Assembly: GCF_030389965.1 (NCBI RefSeq)
Contig: NZ_CP128400.1
Coordinates: forward strand, 1,364,001-1,428,000
Origin: Candidatus Chlorohelix allophototropha
GTDB taxonomy: Bacteria; Chloroflexota; Chloroflexia; Chloroheliales; Chloroheliaceae
Length of the DNA stretch: 64,000 nt
Direction of reading: 5' to 3'
Shown here: piece by piece, positions 5,750-58,096 of the stretch
How positions within the stretch are numbered: the first letter of the stretch is position 1
Layout: the number at the start of each line of letters is the position of its first letter
Notes under the pieces: generated by a model
Database searches by the model: none
The model's input: the letters and a program-made list of their open reading frames with translations, nothing else
Told to the model about the DNA's origin: nothing
Program-made: the position numbers and the translations under genes

Positions 5750-8566
5750 CTAGCGCATCGCCGCAACTGCCCCGTGACATTTCTTATATTTCTTACCGCT
5801 ACCGCAAGGGCAAGGCTCGTTCGGTCCTGTTTTTTTTGATTTGGCAGGTGTAGGTTTAGCTTTACCGTTATCGGCGGACTCTTCCGGCGCATTGGTTTGC
5901 ATCGGCGGTGGTGGAGGAGCAGCCCGTTGAAGTTCATAGGCAAAGAACTTTTCGGCAATATCGCGCTTGATGTTAACCTGTAACTCATTCCAGAACTGGA
6001 AGGCAGCACGGCGATATTCCTGTAATGGATCGCGTTGTCCATACGCCCGCAGACCAATACCGCGTCGTAATTCTTCAAGCGGGGTCAAGTAATTTACCCA
6101 GTTATCGTCATAGACCTGAACCAATACCAGCCGCTCGAACAACTTCATATTCTCTTCGCCGAGACGCTCTAGTTTCTCGTTATAAGCGTGATCAAGCATT
6201 TCTGAGACAAGTTCATCTATCCCCTCACGATTTTTGCCTTCAAAATCGTGTAAGCTTATATTGAACTCTTTCTCAAGAGCTTCAAGCACCATTTGCTTTT
6301 GATCTTCTTCATCGTGAGGCTGGCGGTCAAACTTGATAGCGCTACTACGCAGCATCAGACCGAGGTTGCGGAATAGGCTTGCTAAATCCCATTCGTGTTG
6401 GTCGCCGTGAGTATGCTCTTCTACAATCTCATCCAGTCGTCCCTTAATCAGGGTACTAATCTGTTCTCGCAGGTCTTCACTGGTGAGAATACGATGGCGG
6501 TCATCATAAATTGATTCGCGCTGTTTGTTCATTACATCATCGAACTCAACTAAGTGCTTTCGGAAGTCGAAGTTCATGCCTTCTACTTTTGTCTGCGCTT
6601 GCTCTACTAACCTACCAACCATACCAAAGTCAATCGGTTGATCATCCTCAAAATTAAAGCGTTCTAGCAGACTTTTGATGCGATCTGAACCAAAACGGCG
6701 CATTAGCTCATCTTCCAGCGATATATAGAAACGGGTGCTACCCGGGTCGCCTTGTCGTCCGGCACGACCGCGCAACTGGTTGTCAATACGGCGCGACTCG
6801 TGGCGTTCAGTCCCTATAATGTGCAAACCTCCAGCGGCAATAACCCGTTCATGGGCTTCTTCCCAACGTTTTTGGGCTTCTTCTTCTGCTTCAGAATATA
6901 TTTCCGAGCCTATGTCTTCCGCCTTTAAGCCACGTTTCTCCAATTCGTCTTGCAAATAGCTGTCAGGTGAACCGCCCAAAATAATGTCAGTACCGCGTCC
7001 TGCCATATTGGTCGCGATTGTAATTGCACCTGGTCGCCCGGCTTGCGTGACGATTGCGGCTTCCTTTTCATGCAATTTTGCGTTCAGCACATTGTGAGGA
7101 ATTTTGTGCCGCTGCAAAAGGTTTGCCAACACCTCGGATTTTTCCACACTAGTTGTACCAACTAGTACGGGTCGCCCGATTTTGTACATTTCCTCGATTT
7201 CTTCCACCACTGCTTCGTATTTGGATTTTTCGCTCTTGAAAACCATATCGTTTTCGTCGGCGCGCTTCATCTCTTTGTTGGTGGGGATTGGCACTACATC
7301 AAGTCCATAAATTTTATAGAATTCTTCCGACTCAGTTATAGCAGTACCGGTCATGCCTGAGAGTTTTTCGTACATACGGAAATAGTTCTGTAGTGTAATG
7401 GTAGCGTAGGTAAGATTTTCCTGTTGTATGCGTACTCTCTCTTTGGCTTCAATCGCTTGATGCAACCCGCCTTCGTAACGTCTACCTTCCATCAAGCGTC
7501 CGGTGAACTCGTCTACGATGATAACTTGCCCATCACGCACAATATACTCGCGGTCGCGCTGATAGAGAGCTTTCGCTTTGAGCGCATTATCAAGGTATGG
7601 GGTATATTTGCTCCATTTATCATCATAGATGCTTTCGTAGGGTGGGATATTGAGCATACGCTCTACTCGTTCGAGACCGAGTTCGGTTAGGTTTACAACC
7701 CGCTCTTTTTCTTTGATAGTGTAATCTCTGTCTTCGCCTTCCCGTAACTGGCGCAAAATGTCGGCGAATTTGTAGTAATTATCATCGGCTTTGCCTGCCG
7801 GTCCACTGATAATAAGCGGAGTTCGCGCTTCGTCAATTAGAATGTTATCTACTTCGTCCACAATCGCGTAATGCAATTCGCGCTGTACATATTCCTCTGC
7901 GCTGCGTGCCATGTTATCACGCAGATAATCAAAGCCAAACTCATTATTGGTACCATGAGTAATATCTGCTCTATAGGCAGCATGGCGGGATACCGGTACC
8001 AAGAAGTTCATAGAGGGATCGGAAGGATCGTGGAAGGTAGGGTCGAGCATGTAGGCGGAAGGTCGGTTGGGATTGCCGCCATTGCTCTGGATAACTGCTA
8101 CAGAGAGTCCTAGAGCATGATAAATCGGTCCCATCCATTGAGTATCACGTTTTGCTAGGTAATCGTTTACTGTAATTACGTGTACACCAAGACCTTCAAG
8201 CGCGTTTAAATAGGCAGCGAGGGTTGCCACCAGCGTTTTACCTTCACCGGTTTTCATTTCGGCTATCTTACCGCTATGTAATACTTGCCCACCCATTATT
8301 TGCACTTTGAAGTGTTTCTGACGACGGGTTCTCCATGCAGCCTCACGCACTGTCGCGAAAGCTTCGGGCAGAATATCTTCCAGACTTTCCCCGTTATTTA
8401 ATCTTTCTTTGAATTGGTCGGTTTTGGCACGAAGTTCTTCATCACTAAGTTTTGAAAATTCCTGATCATATTCATTTATAACTTTGCTGGCGATTTGCTC
8501 TAATTTGCGCAATTCTTTATCGGTACTATCGCCACCTGTAATTAAATTCTTAAGAGTTTTGAACAC
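5750..8566 (-). CDS. secA: Protein translocase ATPase SecA
   Basis: Motor ATPase that drives preproteins through SecYEG. The 938-residue product has the expected order: Walker A ([18 protein letters not shown]) near residue 105, preprotein cross-linking region, [15 protein letters not shown] Walker B, second ATPase half with [13 protein letters not shown] and [21 protein letters not shown], scaffold/wing domain, and a C-terminal SecB/phospholipid-binding zinc motif [14 protein letters not shown] proline-rich linker (AAPPPPPMQ) precedes the zinc motif. The start is a GTG at 8566 with AGGTGG about 5 bases upstream. An extended -10 promoter lies ~95 bases further up. It appears to be a single-gene transcript. 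Confidence 0.98.
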
Positions 8567-8659
8567 AATTCCACCTATAATTGCTAATTAATATTTATGC
8601 CTATTCCGGATATTATAAAAATCTAATAACCCGGCTTTCCGGCAATTTCTACAAACCAC

Positions 8660-8668
8660 ATTATAACA
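8660..8668 (-). promoter_or_regulatory. Extended -10 promoter element for secA
   Basis: On the minus strand the bases read TGTTATAATG, that is a perfect TATAAT with an upstream TG one base away (extended -10). No good -35 hexamer lies 16-18 bases further up, which extended -10 promoters tolerate. Transcription would begin near 8653, about 87 bases before the secA GTG. Confidence 0.4.
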
Positions 8669-8709
8669 TATCAAAATAGTTATTCTCGTTCTACTTACGA
8701 TGACATAGC

Positions 8710-10491
8710 TTATTGATTGTATCGCCAGCTAAAATAATGCCGTCCGATGTTACCCATTTCCACCCGCCAATCCACAGGATTTGTCGGTGTATAAGTAAGT
8801 ACTCGGCGTTCAAATAATTGTACTAGTACGTATGTATTAGTTCCCGCTAATTTTGTGACTGTCCAGTAAGGGTCAGTAATGGGGTAACCCAATACAAAGA
8901 GCCATCCTCCGGTTATGCTATTCATATAGGTCAGAAGTACATCCGCAATGTTGTGTCCTAGGGTTTTGTCATATTGTTTATAAGTCACCGGGGCAGGCGC
9001 GTTTGCCACTTTTTGCACTGAGCCGTCTTTAGCAATAGTCTCAAGAACTGTTTGTCCGGTTCGGTCTGCGACACGCTTGTCATTATTGAGTGTGGCTACC
9101 GTTGCAAAAGAGGCATAGGTAGGGGCACTGAGATTGGATGCGGCAGGATCTCCCGCAACCGGCACTTGCGCCGGGCTGCGTTGTTCGTAGCTGCTGTCTC
9201 CTACCTGCACGAATCCTCCTACCAATTCGCGGGTGAGCAAGCCACTGGTTACAAACCACTTGCTGTTGCGGTCTCCAGCCGGATTATTGATTTCCAGCCG
9301 GGCTTTATCAAGGTAATAAACCAACCGATTACCACCGGGCGCTTCTTTGTAGGGTTCGTAGCGCGCCTCGAAGATTTCAGGTCCGTATAACCAACTTCGC
9401 TTAACTTTACCTGCTGCTACCGGTGCATCGGTGTTCTGCCATAGATTCCGCACCGAAATATCAGCGTTGCTCAAACCCGCTTTGGGTTGGGTAACGGTGG
9501 AGGTAGTAATCAACGGGCTGGTGCTGAACGACCAACTTACCACTTGTGCTGCGCCACCGTTAATACTGAATGTAAAGGTGACGGTAAGGGTCGTATCCGG
9601 GGCAAGTGGTTGAATTGAAGAAATTGCGGCGCTATTGCGGGCAGTCCAGAACGAGTTCAAATCTGCCAGTTTGTAGCTTGGCACTTCCTTACCACTCGAA
9701 TCTTTCAAGCTCATTCCATTGGGATCATACACAATTTTACCCGAACCCCGGTAAGTAACCGTAATCGGATTGCCGATAGGGTAAGTTGGATTCAACCCGG
9801 CACGCTTGAACATATCGGGACTTTCTCCCCGATAACTGCGATAAAACCCACTACTGCCATTAGGCGGCCAGATTATAAATTGAGGCTGGAAGCTGGTTTT
9901 CCACACGGGCATTCCGAAATCTATAACTGAAATCGGGTTTGTACCATCCGGTTTGGCGCCATAAGCAATCCCAATATCTGGATAAGCAGGGTCAAGTAGA
10001 GGAATACGATGGTTCAAGGTGTTCATCAGACGTTCGACTGCTTGCAAAGGGTCGGCAATAGTATCAATGTTTTCATTGGTACTATCTGGGTTTACATAAC
10101 CAAAATGGGCAGCACGGGCAAAGAAATCTTTACCGCAAAAGCCCTGATTAGTGGCTATTTCTTCGTGAATGGAATAATTACCCGACCCATTCAAGGTGTA
10201 ATAATTAACATGAGACGCTGCCGCTTGCTGTAACGGTTGGTTCATCGTTGCTGCTGCCACGCTTACCTGACTACGATAGTAGTTTATTCTGTCCAGCGCA
10301 AACTGTGATTTATCCAAACCGAAAGTTTGCATAGAACCAGTATTACTATCTGCCGCATCCATCCCCACAGAGGCTATAGTCATAGGGGCACTTTCTTCAT
10401 CCGATTGGAAAGTATCCGGAGTATCGGCTGTAGTAAGACTTGGAGGGGGTGTATTGGTAGAGTTTGGTTCAGATCCGGTATCAGCGCTCAT
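8710..10491 (-). CDS. CAP/SCP-domain protein of unknown function
   Basis: The N-terminal third contains a CAP (cysteine-rich secretory/PR-1-like) domain: LDRINYYRSQV, LQQAAASHVNYYTLNG and HEE followed by FFARAAHFGY resemble Chloroflexota CAP proteins. The region after residue ~250 holds an Ig-like segment (PLAPDTTLTVTFTFSINGGA), then a long C-terminal part repeating themes such as ERRVLTYTP and GNIGRHYFSWRY, seen in large Chloroflexota surface proteins. I place the start at the ATG at 10491 because AGGAGA lies 7 bases before it; a GTG at 10524 has no such site. The predicted N-terminus (MSADTGSEPNSTN) shows no signal peptide, which is odd for a domain that is usually secreted. Function is unknown. 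Confidence 0.75.
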   Translation of the reverse strand: MSADTGSEPNSTNTPPPSLTTADTPDTFQSDEESAPMTIASVGMDAADSNTGSMQTFGLDKSQFALDRINYYRSQVSVAAATMNQPLQQAAASHVNYYTLNGSGNYSIHEEIATNQGFCGKDFFARAAHFGYVNPDSTNENIDTIADPLQAVERLMNTLNHRIPLLDPAYPDIGIAYGAKPDGTNPISVIDFGMPVWKTSFQPQFIIWPPNGSSGFYRSYRGESPDMFKRAGLNPTYPIGNPITVTYRGSGKIVYDPNGMSLKDSSGKEVPSYKLADLNSFWTARNSAAISSIQPLAPDTTLTVTFTFSINGGAAQVVSWSFSTSPLITTSTVTQPKAGLSNADISVRNLWQNTDAPVAAGKVKRSWLYGPEIFEARYEPYKEAPGGNRLVYYLDKARLEINNPAGDRNSKWFVTSGLLTRELVGGFVQVGDSSYEQRSPAQVPVAGDPAASNLSAPTYASFATVATLNNDKRVADRTGQTVLETIAKDGSVQKVANAPAPVTYKQYDKTLGHNIADVLLTYMNSITGGWLFVLGYPITDPYWTVTKLAGTNTYVLVQLFERRVLTYTPTNPVDWRVEMGNIGRHYFSWRYNQ

Positions 10492-10570
10492 AATCTTTCT
10501 CCTGTTCAGCTGATATATAGGCACTTTACATATCGGATTTTACTTAATGCAGGCAGTTAAAGCAATCGAG

Positions 10571-10599
10571 TTGCAAAATAGCCTCAACTTTGTTATTAT
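10571..10599 (+). promoter_or_regulatory. Promoter of the tRNA-Leu/tRNA-Thr unit
   Basis: TTGCAA at 10571-10576 and TATTAT at 10594-10599 are separated by exactly 17 bases and lie about 15 bases before the mature 5' end of tRNA-Leu, a typical arrangement for a sigma-70 tRNA promoter. Confidence 0.55.
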
Positions 10600-10613
10600 A
10601 TTGTACGAGTTAC

Positions 10614-10697
10614 GCCTGGGTGGCGGAATGGCAGACGCGGCGGTCTCAAAAACCGTTGGGCTAATCACCCGTGTGGGTTCGACTCCCACTCCAGGCA
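10614..10697 (+). tRNA. tRNA-Leu (anticodon CAA)
   Basis: 84 nt with a class II long variable arm. The acceptor arm GCCTGGG pairs with TCCAGGC (one G-T pair), with A as discriminator. The anticodon stem CGGT/ACCG encloses loop CTCAAAA, giving anticodon CAA, which reads UUG. The T arm GTGGG-TTCGACT-CCCAC is perfect. CCA is not encoded. Confidence 0.95.
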
Positions 10698-10698
10698 T

Positions 10699-10771
<73 letters not shown>

Positions 10772-10774
10772 TGA

Positions 10775-10808
10775 TAAAAAAAAGCGAGCGCTTTGCCCGC
10801 TTTTTTTT
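10775..10808 (+). terminator. Intrinsic terminator of the tRNA unit, possibly bidirectional
   Basis: An A-run, the arm AAAGCG(A)GC, a short loop and the arm GC(C)CGCTTT followed by eight T form a hairpin a few bases after tRNA-Thr. The A-run on the other side would give a T-tail on the minus strand, so it may also stop transcripts of the hydrolase gene at 10830. Confidence 0.7.
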
Positions 10809-10829
10809 CAAATTTATCTCAAAGGGCTT

Positions 10830-11861
10830 TCAATTCTCCGAGTGCGCCAAAAGATCGTTCCTCTTCCCAATTGAATTTTTCCCCAAGTGCATTATCATCA
10901 ACTCCCCAACTTGTTTTGGCAATTCTGCCAGAATTAAATGTCCACACTTAGGCATTTCAAAGTAGGTAAGATTTGGGATTAGGTCTGCTAACGCTTTAGC
11001 ATTCTTTTTGCCGATAACCCGATCATGTGAACCCGGCACCAGCAAAGTTGGCGCTTTAACAGCGGCACACCAAAGGGGCAACTCATCTAGCACTGGTTTT
11101 GACATGATGTCACGGGCGCTATTGTACGAGGTGCGGAAGGGGCAATCACGGAGACTAAGTAAGCCGTATAAAATGTCGCGCTTGTCCACCGGGTTTTTAG
11201 TGAGTGTCAATCGAGAGTAGTAGTAAACAAACCGCCAACTTCTAGGACCCATAGGACGCAAAACTTTACTGAAAACAGTGCTAAGCGTTATCGGCATAAC
11301 CTTTACTACAATCGGATTATATCGGAATAAACCAAAATTAAAGGCAGTCAAGGTGGCAACATGTTCAGGATATTTTGCGGCATAAGATACTGCTATAACA
11401 GAACCTAGCGAAAAAGTAGCAACGTGGAATTTCTCCAATTTAAAATGCTGGCGTATAGCTTCGAGGTCATTCACATAAGCCTTGATACTATAGTCATCAT
11501 TTCCCGGATGGTTTTCATCGCTCAAGCCATGCCCACGTAGATCATAATTGATTGTACGATACCCGCCCTCGTTGAGCTTGCCAATGATTGAATGCCACCA
11601 GAAACTACTACAATCCCAGCCATGAACCAAAATCACCGCCTCACCATCCGCGGGCCCCTCATCCATTATAAAGTGCTTAACCCCGTTGATTTCAACAAAT
11701 TTCCCTGCCGCAATTTTGGCAAGGTCATCTTCTATCTCAGCGCGGCGTTTAGCTTTGAGACGCGGCTGGTACAACTCTTTTTTTAGGCTCTCGATGTAAT
11801 CAACCGCTTTTGAGGTGAGTAACCCGGCAGAGGCAGCATTGGTATCATTTACTTTAAGCAT
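10830..11861 (-). CDS. Alpha/beta-fold hydrolase
   Basis: A 343-residue soluble hydrolase. The oxyanion-hole region is VILVHGWDCSSFWWHS (about residue 76). The nucleophile elbow reads FHVATFSLGSVIA, so the Ser is kept but the first glycine of the usual G-x-S-x-G is Thr. The acid lies in VPGSHDRV and the catalytic His in KCGHLILAELP near residue 310, so a complete Ser-Asp-His triad can be drawn. No signal peptide is apparent. Divergent from the cytochrome/fmoA unit across a 302-base spacer, it could share regulation with photosynthesis genes, but the sequence does not identify its substrate. Its resemblance to BchO-type hydrolases is only at fold level. Confidence 0.85.
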   Translation of the reverse strand: MLKVNDTNAASAGLLTSKAVDYIESLKKELYQPRLKAKRRAEIEDDLAKIAAGKFVEINGVKHFIMDEGPADGEAVILVHGWDCSSFWWHSIIGKLNEGGYRTINYDLRGHGLSDENHPGNDDYSIKAYVNDLEAIRQHFKLEKFHVATFSLGSVIAVSYAAKYPEHVATLTAFNFGLFRYNPIVVKVMPITLSTVFSKVLRPMGPRSWRFVYYYSRLTLTKNPVDKRDILYGLLSLRDCPFRTSYNSARDIMSKPVLDELPLWCAAVKAPTLLVPGSHDRVIGKKNAKALADLIPNLTYFEMPKCGHLILAELPKQVGELMIMHLGKNSIGKRNDLLAHSEN

Positions 11862-12163
11862 AGGGATCCACCTTAATCTATTTGAAAGAAATGAGACTTC
11901 TGTAATTAATTTATGACTAAGTTGGGATATGCGCAGTAGTAACCACTACAAAACCTATTGTTCAAAATTTGTCGAAGATGGCGCAGAATCGAGGGTGTAG
12001 CAAAAACTACCGCACCCTGAAGCCAGTTTTAATAGAATAAACTCAATAGTAAATACCTGTTTGCTTACGTAGGAATAACTCTTCTTGCGTTTAATTTTTA
12101 ACGCCCATCAAGCCTTTAAGTATCTAGTATCCGGCAAGTCTAGCTAGACAGGAGAGAAAACCA
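11862..12163. other. Divergent intergenic region upstream of the cytochrome-fmoA unit
   Basis: This 302-base spacer holds the 5' signals of the hydrolase (minus) and the cytochrome gene (plus). I find no hexamer pair close to TTGACA/TATAAT at 16-18 bases on the plus strand. Two dyads stand out. At 11992-12018, AGGGTGTAG and CTACCGCACCCT can fold into a stem with a CCG bulge region. At 12087-12104, GCGTT and AACGC flank eight A/T-rich bases. Either may be an operator. GGAGAG at 12151-12156 is the ribosome-binding site of the GTG-started cytochrome. Confidence 0.5.
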
Positions 12164-12721
12164 GTGGCTTACCAACCTAAACAAAACAGAAATGTTAGGA
12201 CGGTGTTGGGAGAACCCCGTGTACAACTGGTGGTTTACACTGTCTGGTTCAGTGGTATTATCATCGGGGCGATCCTGCTCTTTTTCCTCGGTTTTCTGGT
12301 AGCAGGCGACTATAACGGGCGCACCCAGCAGACTGCTCGAGAAGCGGCCGGTCCTGCATACGCTAAAATCCCACTAACCGCCGACGGTACGAAGATTGCG
12401 TACGTGGAAGCGTGGAAAACCCAAGGAGCACAGGGTGAGGAAGCGCTGAAAAGTGCCCTTGCTCAAGGGCAAGCTAACTTTAATCGCATTTGTGTCGGTT
12501 GTCATTATGGTCCTCCGACCATTACCAGTATCGGCGCGTGGTTGGGTGATCTTTACCAAACCGCAACTCTTTACAATGGTACGCCCGTGAACGATGCAAA
12601 TGTAGTGAAGTTTATCTTACTAGGACATGGAAATATGCCTTCCGGCATTCCATTGCCTCAGCAGGCAGTAAATATTATGCTCTATTTGAAACAGCAGACG
12701 AGTGGCACGCCAACCAAGTGA
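12164..12721 (+). CDS. Membrane-anchored monohaem cytochrome c, candidate photosynthetic electron carrier
   Basis: 185 residues from a GTG with GGAGAG seven bases upstream. A short basic N-terminus is followed by one transmembrane helix (about 22-48: VQLVVYTVWFSGIIIGAILL onward) that tethers the protein with its C-terminus outside. The haem site is CVGCH (Cys 110, Cys 113, His 114); Met 158 in GHGNMPSG is the probable sixth ligand, as in class I cytochromes c. The single haem and its position just upstream of fmoA in the same direction suggest a role in electron delivery near the photosynthetic apparatus, perhaps to the type I reaction centre. This role is inference from context. It differs from green sulfur PscC, which has several N-terminal helices, so I give no gene symbol. 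Confidence 0.88.
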   Translation: MAYQPKQNRNVRTVLGEPRVQLVVYTVWFSGIIIGAILLFFLGFLVAGDYNGRTQQTAREAAGPAYAKIPLTADGTKIAYVEAWKTQGAQGEEALKSALAQGQANFNRICVGCHYGPPTITSIGAWLGDLYQTATLYNGTPVNDANVVKFILLGHGNMPSGIPLPQQAVNIMLYLKQQTSGTPTK

Positions 12722-12766: not shown

Positions 12767-12822
12767 GTCAGTGGGTAGCAGTCGTAAGCAAACTGCTGGC
12801 GACGCGGCTATTGACAACTGAC
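12767..12822 (+). other. Nested inverted repeats between cytochrome gene and fmoA
   Basis: GTCAGT (12767-12772) pairs with ACTGAC (12817-12822), and inside it AGCAGT (12777-12782) pairs with ACTGCT (12792-12797). There is no T-run, so full termination is unlikely. An RNA structure here could act as a processing or stability element that lets the fmoA part of a shared transcript accumulate. This is a hypothesis based on geometry only. Confidence 0.4.
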
Positions 12823-12855
12823 AAGCCACAAGTATTTTAGAAGGAGGATTCCCGT

Positions 12856-13977
12856 ATGCCAGCATTCCTTGAAGGAAGGGCAGAGCAAGGGAAGGGTCTG
12901 GCCGATTGGCGCTGCCGCTACGATAACGATTGGTGGGCTAACATTACAGCCCGTGCTACGATAGGTTGCCCAGCGGCAGTACCCAAACTCCCACTCGAAT
13001 CCGAGATAGAGTTTAGAGCTAGGCCCAAGGGTGACGATATCTCCGACATTACGGTTCGCGTTGAATCGATTGTGGAGGGCGTTAAGAAGGGCTTGGAAAT
13101 AAACGCACTTATCACGGACCTAGATGATAAAACCCGTGAGAGTAAGGGCTATGGGCGCATTATCGTAGGCGATTTCATACACCCATTTGAGTGGCGCGGC
13201 ACAGTTCGGCGAGAAACTTACGTTCCCGATAGCAGCCTAAATCTGACCCGATCCCAGACCTATATCGGTGGTCGTTTGTTCCATGATGTTACGGCACGTA
13301 TTGCGCTTGATACCCAGATTGCTCGTGAAGCATGGGAGCAAGTTCGTACTGTGACCGCCAAGAACAGCGAAGTCTTAACTAAGACTGTGTTCTTTGGTCC
13401 TCTATGGAGCACTGCTGATCTCACCGGTCAATTGTATGAGGATATTCAGGTTCGCACCCTGAGTGCTAGTGAGGGCAAAACCCTTAGCCGTGTATCCTTC
13501 GTTACAAGTGGTACTGGTCAAGTGGACAGTATTACCTACTGGACTCGCCTATTCCCGGTGTCTCAGTTGAAAGGTCGCGAAGCCTACGTAAAAGCGAAAT
13601 TTGTAACCGATGGTGCAAGTATCCGCGTGGCTGCCGAAGCTGAATTACCCAGTGGTGTAGAACGAGCCGGTAACTTGCTAAAGGTTATTGACCATCCGCA
13701 AATACCAATCCTGCATCATGGTATTCCAGCACAACCCATCCCGTTGGACTTGGAGTTCAATTATACGCTTACTACGCCAGATGGCTGGAGAATTCAGAAA
13801 GCAGAGCCGACCTTCCGCAAGAAGATTGGGCGAAATAGCTATCTGTTCCAGGGCGGTAGTTATCTGGGTTTTGTTAACACAATTGCCCGTGGCAATATTA
13901 CACCGTTTGACGTATTCTTTGAGCCTGAAGATGGTTCAGTCTCTTTGAGCCCGAACGCTGCTATTGCTATTAAGTAA
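12856..13977 (+). CDS. fmoA: Bacteriochlorophyll a protein FmoA (Fenna-Matthews-Olson antenna)
   Basis: FMO forms a water-soluble trimer that carries bacteriochlorophyll a and passes excitation from the chlorosome baseplate to a type I reaction centre at the cytoplasmic membrane face. The 373-residue product aligns along its full length with the family: VGDFIHPFEWRG, GGRLFHDVTARIALD, SGTGQVDSITYWTRLFP, VIDHPQIPILHHGI and GGSYLGFVNTIARG. The five histidines that ligate bacteriochlorophyll in green sulfur FMO (about 110, 145, 290, 297, 298) correspond to His 109, 143, 280, 287 and 288. The two cysteines linked to redox quenching in Chlorobaculum (49 and 353) align with Ser 49 and Ala 344. A ~18-residue tail extends past the usual C-terminus. 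No signal peptide or membrane helix is visible. AAGGAGG at 12841-12847 is a very strong ribosome site, and a perfect terminator follows at 14261. Confidence 0.95.
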   Translation: MPAFLEGRAEQGKGLADWRCRYDNDWWANITARATIGCPAAVPKLPLESEIEFRARPKGDDISDITVRVESIVEGVKKGLEINALITDLDDKTRESKGYGRIIVGDFIHPFEWRGTVRRETYVPDSSLNLTRSQTYIGGRLFHDVTARIALDTQIAREAWEQVRTVTAKNSEVLTKTVFFGPLWSTADLTGQLYEDIQVRTLSASEGKTLSRVSFVTSGTGQVDSITYWTRLFPVSQLKGREAYVKAKFVTDGASIRVAAEAELPSGVERAGNLLKVIDHPQIPILHHGIPAQPIPLDLEFNYTLTTPDGWRIQKAEPTFRKKIGRNSYLFQGGSYLGFVNTIARGNITPFDVFFEPEDGSVSLSPNAAIAIK

Positions 13978-14260: not shown

Positions 14261-14299
14261 AAAGCTGGTCCTTTGAGTGAGGGGACCAGCTTTTTTTTT
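14261..14299 (+). terminator. Strong intrinsic terminator downstream of fmoA
   Basis: AAAGCTGGTCC (14261-14271) pairs without mismatch over 11 bases with GGACCAGCTTT (14283-14293), and the T-run continues to 14299. It ends at the stop codon of the convergent purA-like gene. It is well placed to end the cytochrome-fmoA transcript. Confidence 0.85.
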
Positions 14300-55939: not shown

Positions 55940-58096
55940 ATGTCATTAGATACAAAGCAGGATTTCAGCAAACTTTTGTATGTGGCTGACGCTTATCGCT
56001 ACCAGCGTCGCAAAACCCGCACGGTGAGGGTGGGCAACATCGGTGTTGGTGGGAATAACCCCATCAGAGTGCAATCTATGACTACCGCCGATACGTTGGA
56101 TACCGATTCTACCGTAGCGGAAGCAATACGGCTGGTTAATGTTGGCTGCGAAATTGTACGCATTACCACCCCCACTGCCAAAGATGCCGAGAACCTTAAA
56201 AATATTCGGGCTGCGCTGGACGCTAAAGGCATAAATGTGCCATTGGTGGCAGATATTCACTTCAACCCGAACGCTGCTATGGAAGCCGCGCGTTGGGCTG
56301 ACAAGGTGCGTATCAATCCCGGCAACTTTGCCGATGCCAAGCGTTTTGCCGAGCGTGACTATACCGCTAATGAATATCGTGCCGAACTGGACAAGATTGA
56401 GGAAAAATTCGCGCCTTTGCTGGAGCGTTGCAAAGAATTAGGGCGCAGCATCCGTATCGGTACTAATCATGGTTCACTTAGTGACCGGATTATGAACCAG
56501 TTTGGGGATACTCCTGAAGGGATGGTTGAATCTGCGCTTGAATTTGCCGAAGTCGCCCGCAAATACAATTTCCACGACCTTATTTTTTCTATGAAAGCCA
56601 GCAATCCCAAAGTAATGATTCAAGCATACCGCTTGTTGGCAGCGCGACTGGATGAGCGTGGTTGGGATTATCCCTTGCATCTGGGTGTTACCGAAGCCGG
56701 AAATGGTGAGGACGGGCGCATAAAGAGTGCAATCGGAATTGGCTCTTTGCTAGAGGATGGTTTGGGTGATACTATTCGTGTTTCTCTCACCGAAGACCCT
56801 GAATTGGAAATCCCGGTAGCTGTTCGGTTGGCGCGTCGCTATTCTCGGATTGATGGGTCTATTCTCGAAAAAGCCTCTGCAACCGACGAAACCCCAACTA
56901 TTTTGCCGGAAGCTTTTACCCATCTGGAAGCTTCGCAGACTATTCCCGACAGACGTGACCCTTACCATTTTGTGCGCCGTAGTTCCAGAGTAGTACAGGT
57001 TGGTAGTGTTCGTCTAGGTGGCGAGAATGTGCCGCAAGTAATAGCGTTGCTTACCCAAACACGACTTGAAGAGTTGCTCAAAGCCAACCGCGAATTGCCT
57101 TTGGCGGGTAGCAAGAAAAAGACCTCTACCGAAGCGCCCACCGTACCTGATATATATGTGGTAGATGAATTTACCTCTGAAATAATCGAACTGAAAAAAG
57201 CACAAGGAGATAAGTTACCTCTACTGGCTCAAGTTTATGAGGAAAAAGACGCGCAAATCGCCTTAGCAGCCGGGGCAGATGCTTTCATGCTAGCGCTATA
57301 CTCACAAAGTGGTACTACTAATCTCGCTCAAGTACGTCTTGTAGCACAACTAGCAGTTGCCAACGATAAGCCTCTTTTCCTGCAAAGTGTGGCATCGGGC
57401 AACGCTCTTTACAGCACTGTCACCAGTTATGACACTCCTGAACTGGATAACCTGTTGGAAGCCGCTTACACCAGTCGCGAGGTAGGTGTAAAGGAAATAG
57501 TGTTAGGCTTGGGTCTGGACAGTTCGGCGCGTACTATTTGGAGCTATCGTTTATTGGCTGCAAAACTGCAAGAATTGGGCTGGGACTACCCTATTCACCT
57601 AGAAGCGCCCGGTTTGAAGCAGGGCGTAGTTGAAGATTACCTGATAAATGATAGCATCGCTACCGGTGCGCTACTTGCCGATGGCATTGGCGATAGCATA
57701 CAGGTAATGCAAGGCGATAATAGCCCTCTTACAGGTGAACAGCAAATACAACTGGCGTTTAACATTTTACAGGCAGCAGGGGCGCGCAGCAGCAAAGCCG
57801 AGTTTATCGCTTGCCCTAGCTGTGGTCGCACCCTTTTTGATTTGCAAAGCACCACCGCTCGTATCAAAGCCAAAACCGGACATTTGGTAGGCGTGAAAAT
57901 TGCCATTATGGGCTGTATCGTCAATGGCCTTGGAGAATTGGCGGATGCCGATTTCGGTTATATGGGTGGCGCGCCGGGTAAAGTAAACCTGTTCGTAGGC
58001 AAAACCTCTGTTGAAAAAGGCGTGGCTACCGAAGAGGCAGTCGACCGTTTGATTTCCATAATCAAGCAGCACGGGCGCTGGATTGAACCAGAGTAG
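55940..58096 (+). CDS. ispG: 4-hydroxy-3-methylbut-2-enyl diphosphate synthase, long form
   Basis: Reduces MEcPP to HMBPP in the MEP isoprenoid pathway, which supplies precursors for quinones, carotenoids and the phytyl/farnesyl tail of bacteriochlorophyll. At 718 residues it has the long form with an extra domain (~300-600) between the TIM barrel and the cluster domain, as in plants and Chlamydia, against ~380 in E. coli. N-terminus: RVGNIGVGGNNPIRVQSMTT, DTDSTV. The [4Fe-4S] cysteines are Cys 625 and Cys 628 (ACPSCGRTLFDLQ) and Cys 659 (MGCIVNGLGELADADFG), with a conserved Glu in the last motif. It has its own promoter at 55862. Confidence 0.96.
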   Translation: MSLDTKQDFSKLLYVADAYRYQRRKTRTVRVGNIGVGGNNPIRVQSMTTADTLDTDSTVAEAIRLVNVGCEIVRITTPTAKDAENLKNIRAALDAKGINVPLVADIHFNPNAAMEAARWADKVRINPGNFADAKRFAERDYTANEYRAELDKIEEKFAPLLERCKELGRSIRIGTNHGSLSDRIMNQFGDTPEGMVESALEFAEVARKYNFHDLIFSMKASNPKVMIQAYRLLAARLDERGWDYPLHLGVTEAGNGEDGRIKSAIGIGSLLEDGLGDTIRVSLTEDPELEIPVAVRLARRYSRIDGSILEKASATDETPTILPEAFTHLEASQTIPDRRDPYHFVRRSSRVVQVGSVRLGGENVPQVIALLTQTRLEELLKANRELPLAGSKKKTSTEAPTVPDIYVVDEFTSEIIELKKAQGDKLPLLAQVYEEKDAQIALAAGADAFMLALYSQSGTTNLAQVRLVAQLAVANDKPLFLQSVASGNALYSTVTSYDTPELDNLLEAAYTSREVGVKEIVLGLGLDSSARTIWSYRLLAAKLQELGWDYPIHLEAPGLKQGVVEDYLINDSIATGALLADGIGDSIQVMQGDNSPLTGEQQIQLAFNILQAAGARSSKAEFIACPSCGRTLFDLQSTTARIKAKTGHLVGVKIAIMGCIVNGLGELADADFGYMGGAPGKVNLFVGKTSVEKGVATEEAVDRLISIIKQHGRWIEPE

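Follow-up and report, generated by a model that had tools for sequence, protein, structure and literature searches.

The Fenna-Matthews-Olson antenna gene of 'Candidatus Chlorohelix' and a putative operator shared with dispersed photosynthesis genes

The closest described system is that of the organism itself. The main text of Tsuji et al. 2024 (PMC10972752) divides the genome of L227-S17 ('Candidatus Chlorohelix allophototropha') into chromosomes of 2.96 and 2.45 Mb, a chromid (375 kb) and two plasmids (241 and 55 kb). It reports fmoA, as a remote homologue, together with a type I reaction centre and csmA. According to the same text, Fenna-Matthews-Olson (FMO) proteins come otherwise from two phyla only, the phylogeny of PscA rules out a recent transfer of the reaction centre, and the photosynthesis genes of L227-S17 are dispersed without a large cluster. 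Two further systems offer points of comparison. The reaction centre of Chloracidobacterium carries two distinct donor cytochromes, PscX and PscY, each with a single haem and attached to the membrane (PMC9751088), and NtcA, a CRP-family protein of cyanobacteria, binds the sequence GTAN8TAC (PMC3898017).

The window analysed here is a stretch of 64,000 nucleotides on contig C2 (2,453,413 bp) of the L227-S17 genome, which comprises 6,086,194 bp in five contigs, with C1 measuring 2,961,161 bp. The open reading frame at 12856-13977 on the forward strand encodes 373 amino acids from an ATG start and is a genuine FMO antenna gene, fmoA, as confirmed by matches far above chance. Its product scores 162.8 bits against the Pfam family BChl_A (PF02327; cut-off 25, E 1.4e-47), with an alignment that covers profile positions 12-354 of 355, and a PDB search returned FMO proteins exclusively (best E 8.9e-46). 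The gene is the sole PF02327 match in the L227-S17 genome, and the family has no match in 14 control genomes; a weak hit elsewhere in the Chloroflexia (genome G260; 20.6 bits over 58 columns) lies under the cut-off and was dismissed as chance. As the window gene is that of 'Ca. Chlorohelix', and almost certainly identical to the fmoA that Tsuji et al. 2024 (PMC10972752) describe for L227-S17, the FMO finding as such is already published and not new.

The original prediction had read this gene as an FMO gene with five bacteriochlorophyll-ligating histidines, and the Pfam match, the PDB matches and the alignment with 3vdi all agree with it: His 109, 143, 280, 287 and 288 align with the five conserved histidines of that structure. 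It had also guessed at 'Ca. Chlorohelix' or a relative, which is almost certainly right; the closest relative of FmoA beyond its own genome is found in 'Candidatus Chloroheliaceae bacterium isolate L227-5C', where the orthologue is 80% identical and keeps all five histidine ligands. The placement of the genome among the Chloroflexota is based on its assigned taxonomy and on this L227-5C record. The FmoA proteins of Chlorobiota (PDB 3vdi, 3eoj, 3bsd) resemble that of Chlorohelix in family match, in the five histidines and in length, which differs by no more than about ten residues. Identity to 3vdi, in contrast, is about 31% (101/329 in a residue-by-residue count), and a cysteine pair of 3vdi is missing. 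In the FMO protein of Chlorobiota, the cysteines at 49 and 354 are tied to redox-dependent quenching. These positions are Ser49 and Ala344 in L227-S17 and Thr49 and Ala344 in L227-5C. AlphaFold2 run on a two-sequence alignment, too shallow for this protein, reached a pLDDT of 35.5.

Several sequence signals flank the gene. Upstream, fmoA has its own strong AGGAGG-type ribosome-binding site, GAAGGAGGAT, at 12840-12849 (forward strand), directly preceded by a sigma-70-like promoter match, TTGACA-16-TATTTT, at 12811-12838 (forward strand), a consensus match only, of which the region holds five against 3.3 expected from shuffles. A terminator-like hairpin occupies 14261-14293 in the gap between fmoA and the convergent purA. 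Elsewhere in the window, an IspG/GcpE protein of 718 aa (55940-58096, forward strand) is matched in two stretches, and for this reason is probably a long form with an inserted domain.

Searches of the genome located pscA at C1:264224-266014 (PF00223 above cut-off) and csmA at C1:361779-362006, and found no genes for a type II centre (pufLM, PF00124) in L227-S17. This combination bears out the earlier claim of a type I centre with a chlorosome in a member of the Chloroflexota. Most likely, FmoA forms a BChl a relay between the chlorosome baseplate (CsmA) and a PscA-like, homodimeric type I centre, to which it would pass on the excitation.

Among five genomes of the order, fmoA is present only in L227-S17 and L227-5C, and its surroundings in these two genomes are alike. 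In L227-5C (locus L003), bchD is followed by a flippase-like gene, bchI, a hydrolase gene, cytochrome c, pscA and fmoA, of which the last three share a strand (7297-7974, 8005-9792 and 10001-11122, respectively). The window displays the same order of hydrolase, cytochrome c and fmoA, but without pscA, which in L227-S17 stands alone on C1 close to a fructose-bisphosphatase gene; comparison with the pscA locus by blastn revealed no pscA remnant between cytochrome c and fmoA. The arrangement suggests that fmoA in this lineage would be part of a reaction-centre unit of cytochrome c, pscA and fmoA, complete in L227-5C, of which the window of L227-S17 holds the cytochrome c and fmoA genes, with pscA separate on chromosome 1. 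The alpha/beta hydrolase gene (10830-11861, reverse strand; PF00561) is divergent from the cytochrome gene and has the same place in L227-5C (L003). Its identification as BchO was rejected, with 78 bits against TIGR03056 being below the cut-off of 172.55, and the protein is only distantly BchO-like.

The cytochrome c gene at 12164-12721 (forward strand) encodes a monohaem protein of 185 aa with a single CxxCH motif (CVGCH) and a predicted N-terminal anchor, a transmembrane helix at approximately residues 18-47. Its match to PF13442 is weak (E 0.0011, below cut-off). No match to PscC of Chlorobiota (PF10643) was obtained, the only hits being to PF13442 at E values up to 5, and a structure prediction from an alignment that is too shallow gave a pLDDT of 41. 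The orthologue in L227-5C is 54% identical and stands directly 5' of pscA-fmoA. A second anchored monohaem cytochrome c (L015:8955-9494 and L017:1489-2022, both reverse strand) is encoded in both phototrophs and shares the N-terminal anchor region of the first; its gene in L227-S17 is not preceded by the operator-like sequence described below. Both cytochromes are absent from the three relatives without fmoA. PscX and PscY (PMC9751088), which belong to a type I centre, are likewise c-type cytochromes with one haem and a membrane attachment, and they resemble the two related anchored cytochromes that occur in both phototrophs. The anchors differ, being an N-terminal loop with a modified cysteine in PscX and PscY and a predicted transmembrane helix in Chlorohelix, and a sequence match to a PscX or PscY chain was not found. 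Because of this analogy and the gene order, the window cytochrome is the best-placed candidate for the protein that would donate electrons to the type I reaction centre.

A palindrome is common to the regions upstream of cytochrome c-fmoA in the window, of pscA on C1 and of cytochrome c-pscA-fmoA in L227-5C. The window holds AGTAGTAACCACTACA at 11935-11950, which agrees with TGTAGTnnnnACTACA in 11/12 positions, and TGTAGCAAAAACTACC at 11996-12011, with 10/12. The exact pattern TGTAGNNNNAACTAC occurs at 12 sites in L227-S17 and 7 in L227-5C, and none of the 12 lies inside a long open reading frame. Behind the L227-S17 sites we found bchN, bchM, acsF and bchF, all with scores above curated cut-offs, as well as pscA and cytochrome c-fmoA; further genes there encode a radical-SAM/B12 protein, an ArsA-like ATPase, an FrhB-like protein that may be an 8-vinyl reductase, and three proteins without known function. 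A looser scan for TGTAGTnnnnACTACA over 2.06 Mb adds arsA-csmA, bchP, bchG, a chlG-like gene and a second bchF, so that TGTAGTnnnnACTACA is seen upstream of cytochrome c-fmoA, pscA, arsA-csmA, bchN, bchM, acsF, bchF (two copies), bchP, bchG and the chlG-like gene. In L227-5C, sites recur before the orthologous bchF, arsA, cytochrome c and bchG/regulator genes. The genes preceded by TGTAGTnnnnACTACA would thus probably form a photosynthesis regulon. We did not find the operator, the regulator family, the gene order or the role of the cytochrome in the main text of PMC10972752, the supplements of which may mention the cytochrome or the gene order, and a putative control switch near fmoA based on this operator is apparently undescribed so far.

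Some of the genes behind the sites deserve mention in their own right. The three without known function encode a protein with a weak polyketide-cyclase-like match (G000 C1:2336651-2337148; L035:1586-2083, forward strand), a protein with a weak DoxX match (C1:2419095-2419799; L037:1581-2285, forward strand) and a 132-aa protein without any match (L044:1592-1990, forward strand). The operator lies 64-76 bp 5' of each of these genes, which are candidate novel components of the photosystem or the chlorosome. Two ArsA/Get3-like ATPases also stand behind the operator (L009:8405-9625 and L041:1650-2801, both forward strand), one directly 5' of csmA and the other near bchF, the latter with the operator kept in L227-5C (L040:222-1370, forward strand). 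A role of these ATPases in chlorosome assembly is possible.

The search for a regulator points to five long CRP-family proteins, L082 (C1:1900288-1901403), L087 and L077 in L227-S17 and L081 and L075 in L227-5C, which have a common N-terminal domain. This domain has no Pfam match and occurs in two of 158 Chloroflexia genomes, both of them the phototrophs; it may be a lineage-specific sensor. The best PDB match of L082 is NtcA (E 2.1e-27), and its recognition helix is of the NtcA type, IGSNRVTVTR compared with IGSTRVTVTR, although by NCBIfam it is not NtcA itself, with 106.2 bits against the equivalog model TIGR03697 (cut-off 244.95). Cyanobacterial NtcA, which responds to 2-oxoglutarate, thus resembles L082 in the CRP-family DNA-binding half with its GSxRVTVTR helix, and the operator core found independently in Chlorohelix equals the GTAN8TAC of NtcA. 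The Chlorohelix regulators differ from it in their additional N-terminal domain, which is about 165 residues long, and in their putative targets, the photosynthesis genes. In both strains L082 and its orthologue L081 are divergent from bchG with the operator in between, and L077 has an operator-like site (10/12) 47 bp upstream. Another CRP protein, L096 near the operator site at C1:2419015, was rejected as the regulator because it has counterparts in non-phototrophs.

These NtcA-like proteins are not the only conceivable readers of the sites. The Crp helix-turn-helix model is matched 11 times in L227-S17, and the pairing of regulator with operator is based on similarity and neighbourhood, so that a different protein might bind the operators while the NtcA-like proteins act on other targets. 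We consider this unlikely, though it is the alternative that survives best, given that it is those NtcA-like proteins carrying the extra domain which are restricted to the two phototrophs and that two of the three L227-S17 copies have the operator in their own upstream region. The NtcA-like CRP proteins are probably the readers of TGTAGTnnnnACTACA.

A less probable alternative is that GTAGT-N4-ACTAC is a chance repeat or a feature of the transcript rather than a regulator's operator. The motif was first spotted by eye, upstream of fmoA and pscA, and its exact-pattern total in L227-S17 (12) is close to that of the reversed control pattern (11); the case for an operator therefore rests on the positions of the sites. 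Within the window alone, the count of 4 against 1.7 expected is not significant, and the other 118 of 120 sampled Chloroflexia genomes hold 0-3 sites each, without enrichment over the reversed control. In the 2.06 Mb scan, 10 of the 12 sites that agree in at least 11/12 positions are intergenic, with intergenic DNA making up about 11% of the sequence; the corresponding sum over 11 control palindromes at the same threshold is 7/34. Ranked by exact intergenic excess among 1024 palindromes, GTAGT-N4-ACTAC comes second (9 against 0.26 expected). Once the two discovery sites are set aside, four of the ten that remain still precede curated (bacterio)chlorophyll genes. The pronounced palindromic character of the sequence around a freely varying spacer, the recurrence of sites before orthologous genes in L227-5C, and the presence of NtcA-like proteins whose known relative binds the same core also argue against chance or a transcript feature, which we regard as quite improbable.

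It is highly improbable that fmoA is a contaminant or a recent gain from green sulfur bacteria or Chloracidobacterium outside a native type I system: such an origin would fit the otherwise two-phylum occurrence of FMO given in the main text of PMC10972752 and the separation of fmoA from pscA in L227-S17, but the contig that carries the gene is 2.45 Mb long and one of five in a genome that also encodes PscA and CsmA. The protein is 31% identical to an FMO of Chlorobiota, and its 80%-identical orthologue in L227-5C follows a matching cytochrome gene too, with the order conserved. The PscA phylogeny published there also rules out that the reaction centre was transferred recently.

We thus favour, at a probability of roughly 85%, the explanation as a whole, in which the Chlorohelix fmoA would belong to a reaction-centre unit with a cytochrome donor, and the dispersed photosynthesis genes would stand under the common operator TGTAGTnnnnACTACA, read by NtcA-like regulators of the CRP family. 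With a more modest preference, we hypothesize that the two phototrophs share one GTAN8TAC regulon governed by a new NtcA-like CRP family with a sensor domain, and that the anchored cytochrome is a subunit of the reaction centre.

For the organism, fmoA confirms the published case: FMO and chlorosomes serve a type I photosystem, whereas the other phototrophs of the phylum have type II centres. The electron donor has been missing from this picture, and the gene order of the cytochrome supplies a candidate. Control through a common operator would account for the co-ordination of the scattered photosynthesis genes, and the operator offers a handle on further photosystem genes, such as the three operator-preceded genes without known function. 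Control of photosynthesis by an NtcA-type CRP protein beyond the cyanobacteria would bear on how the control of photosynthesis evolved.
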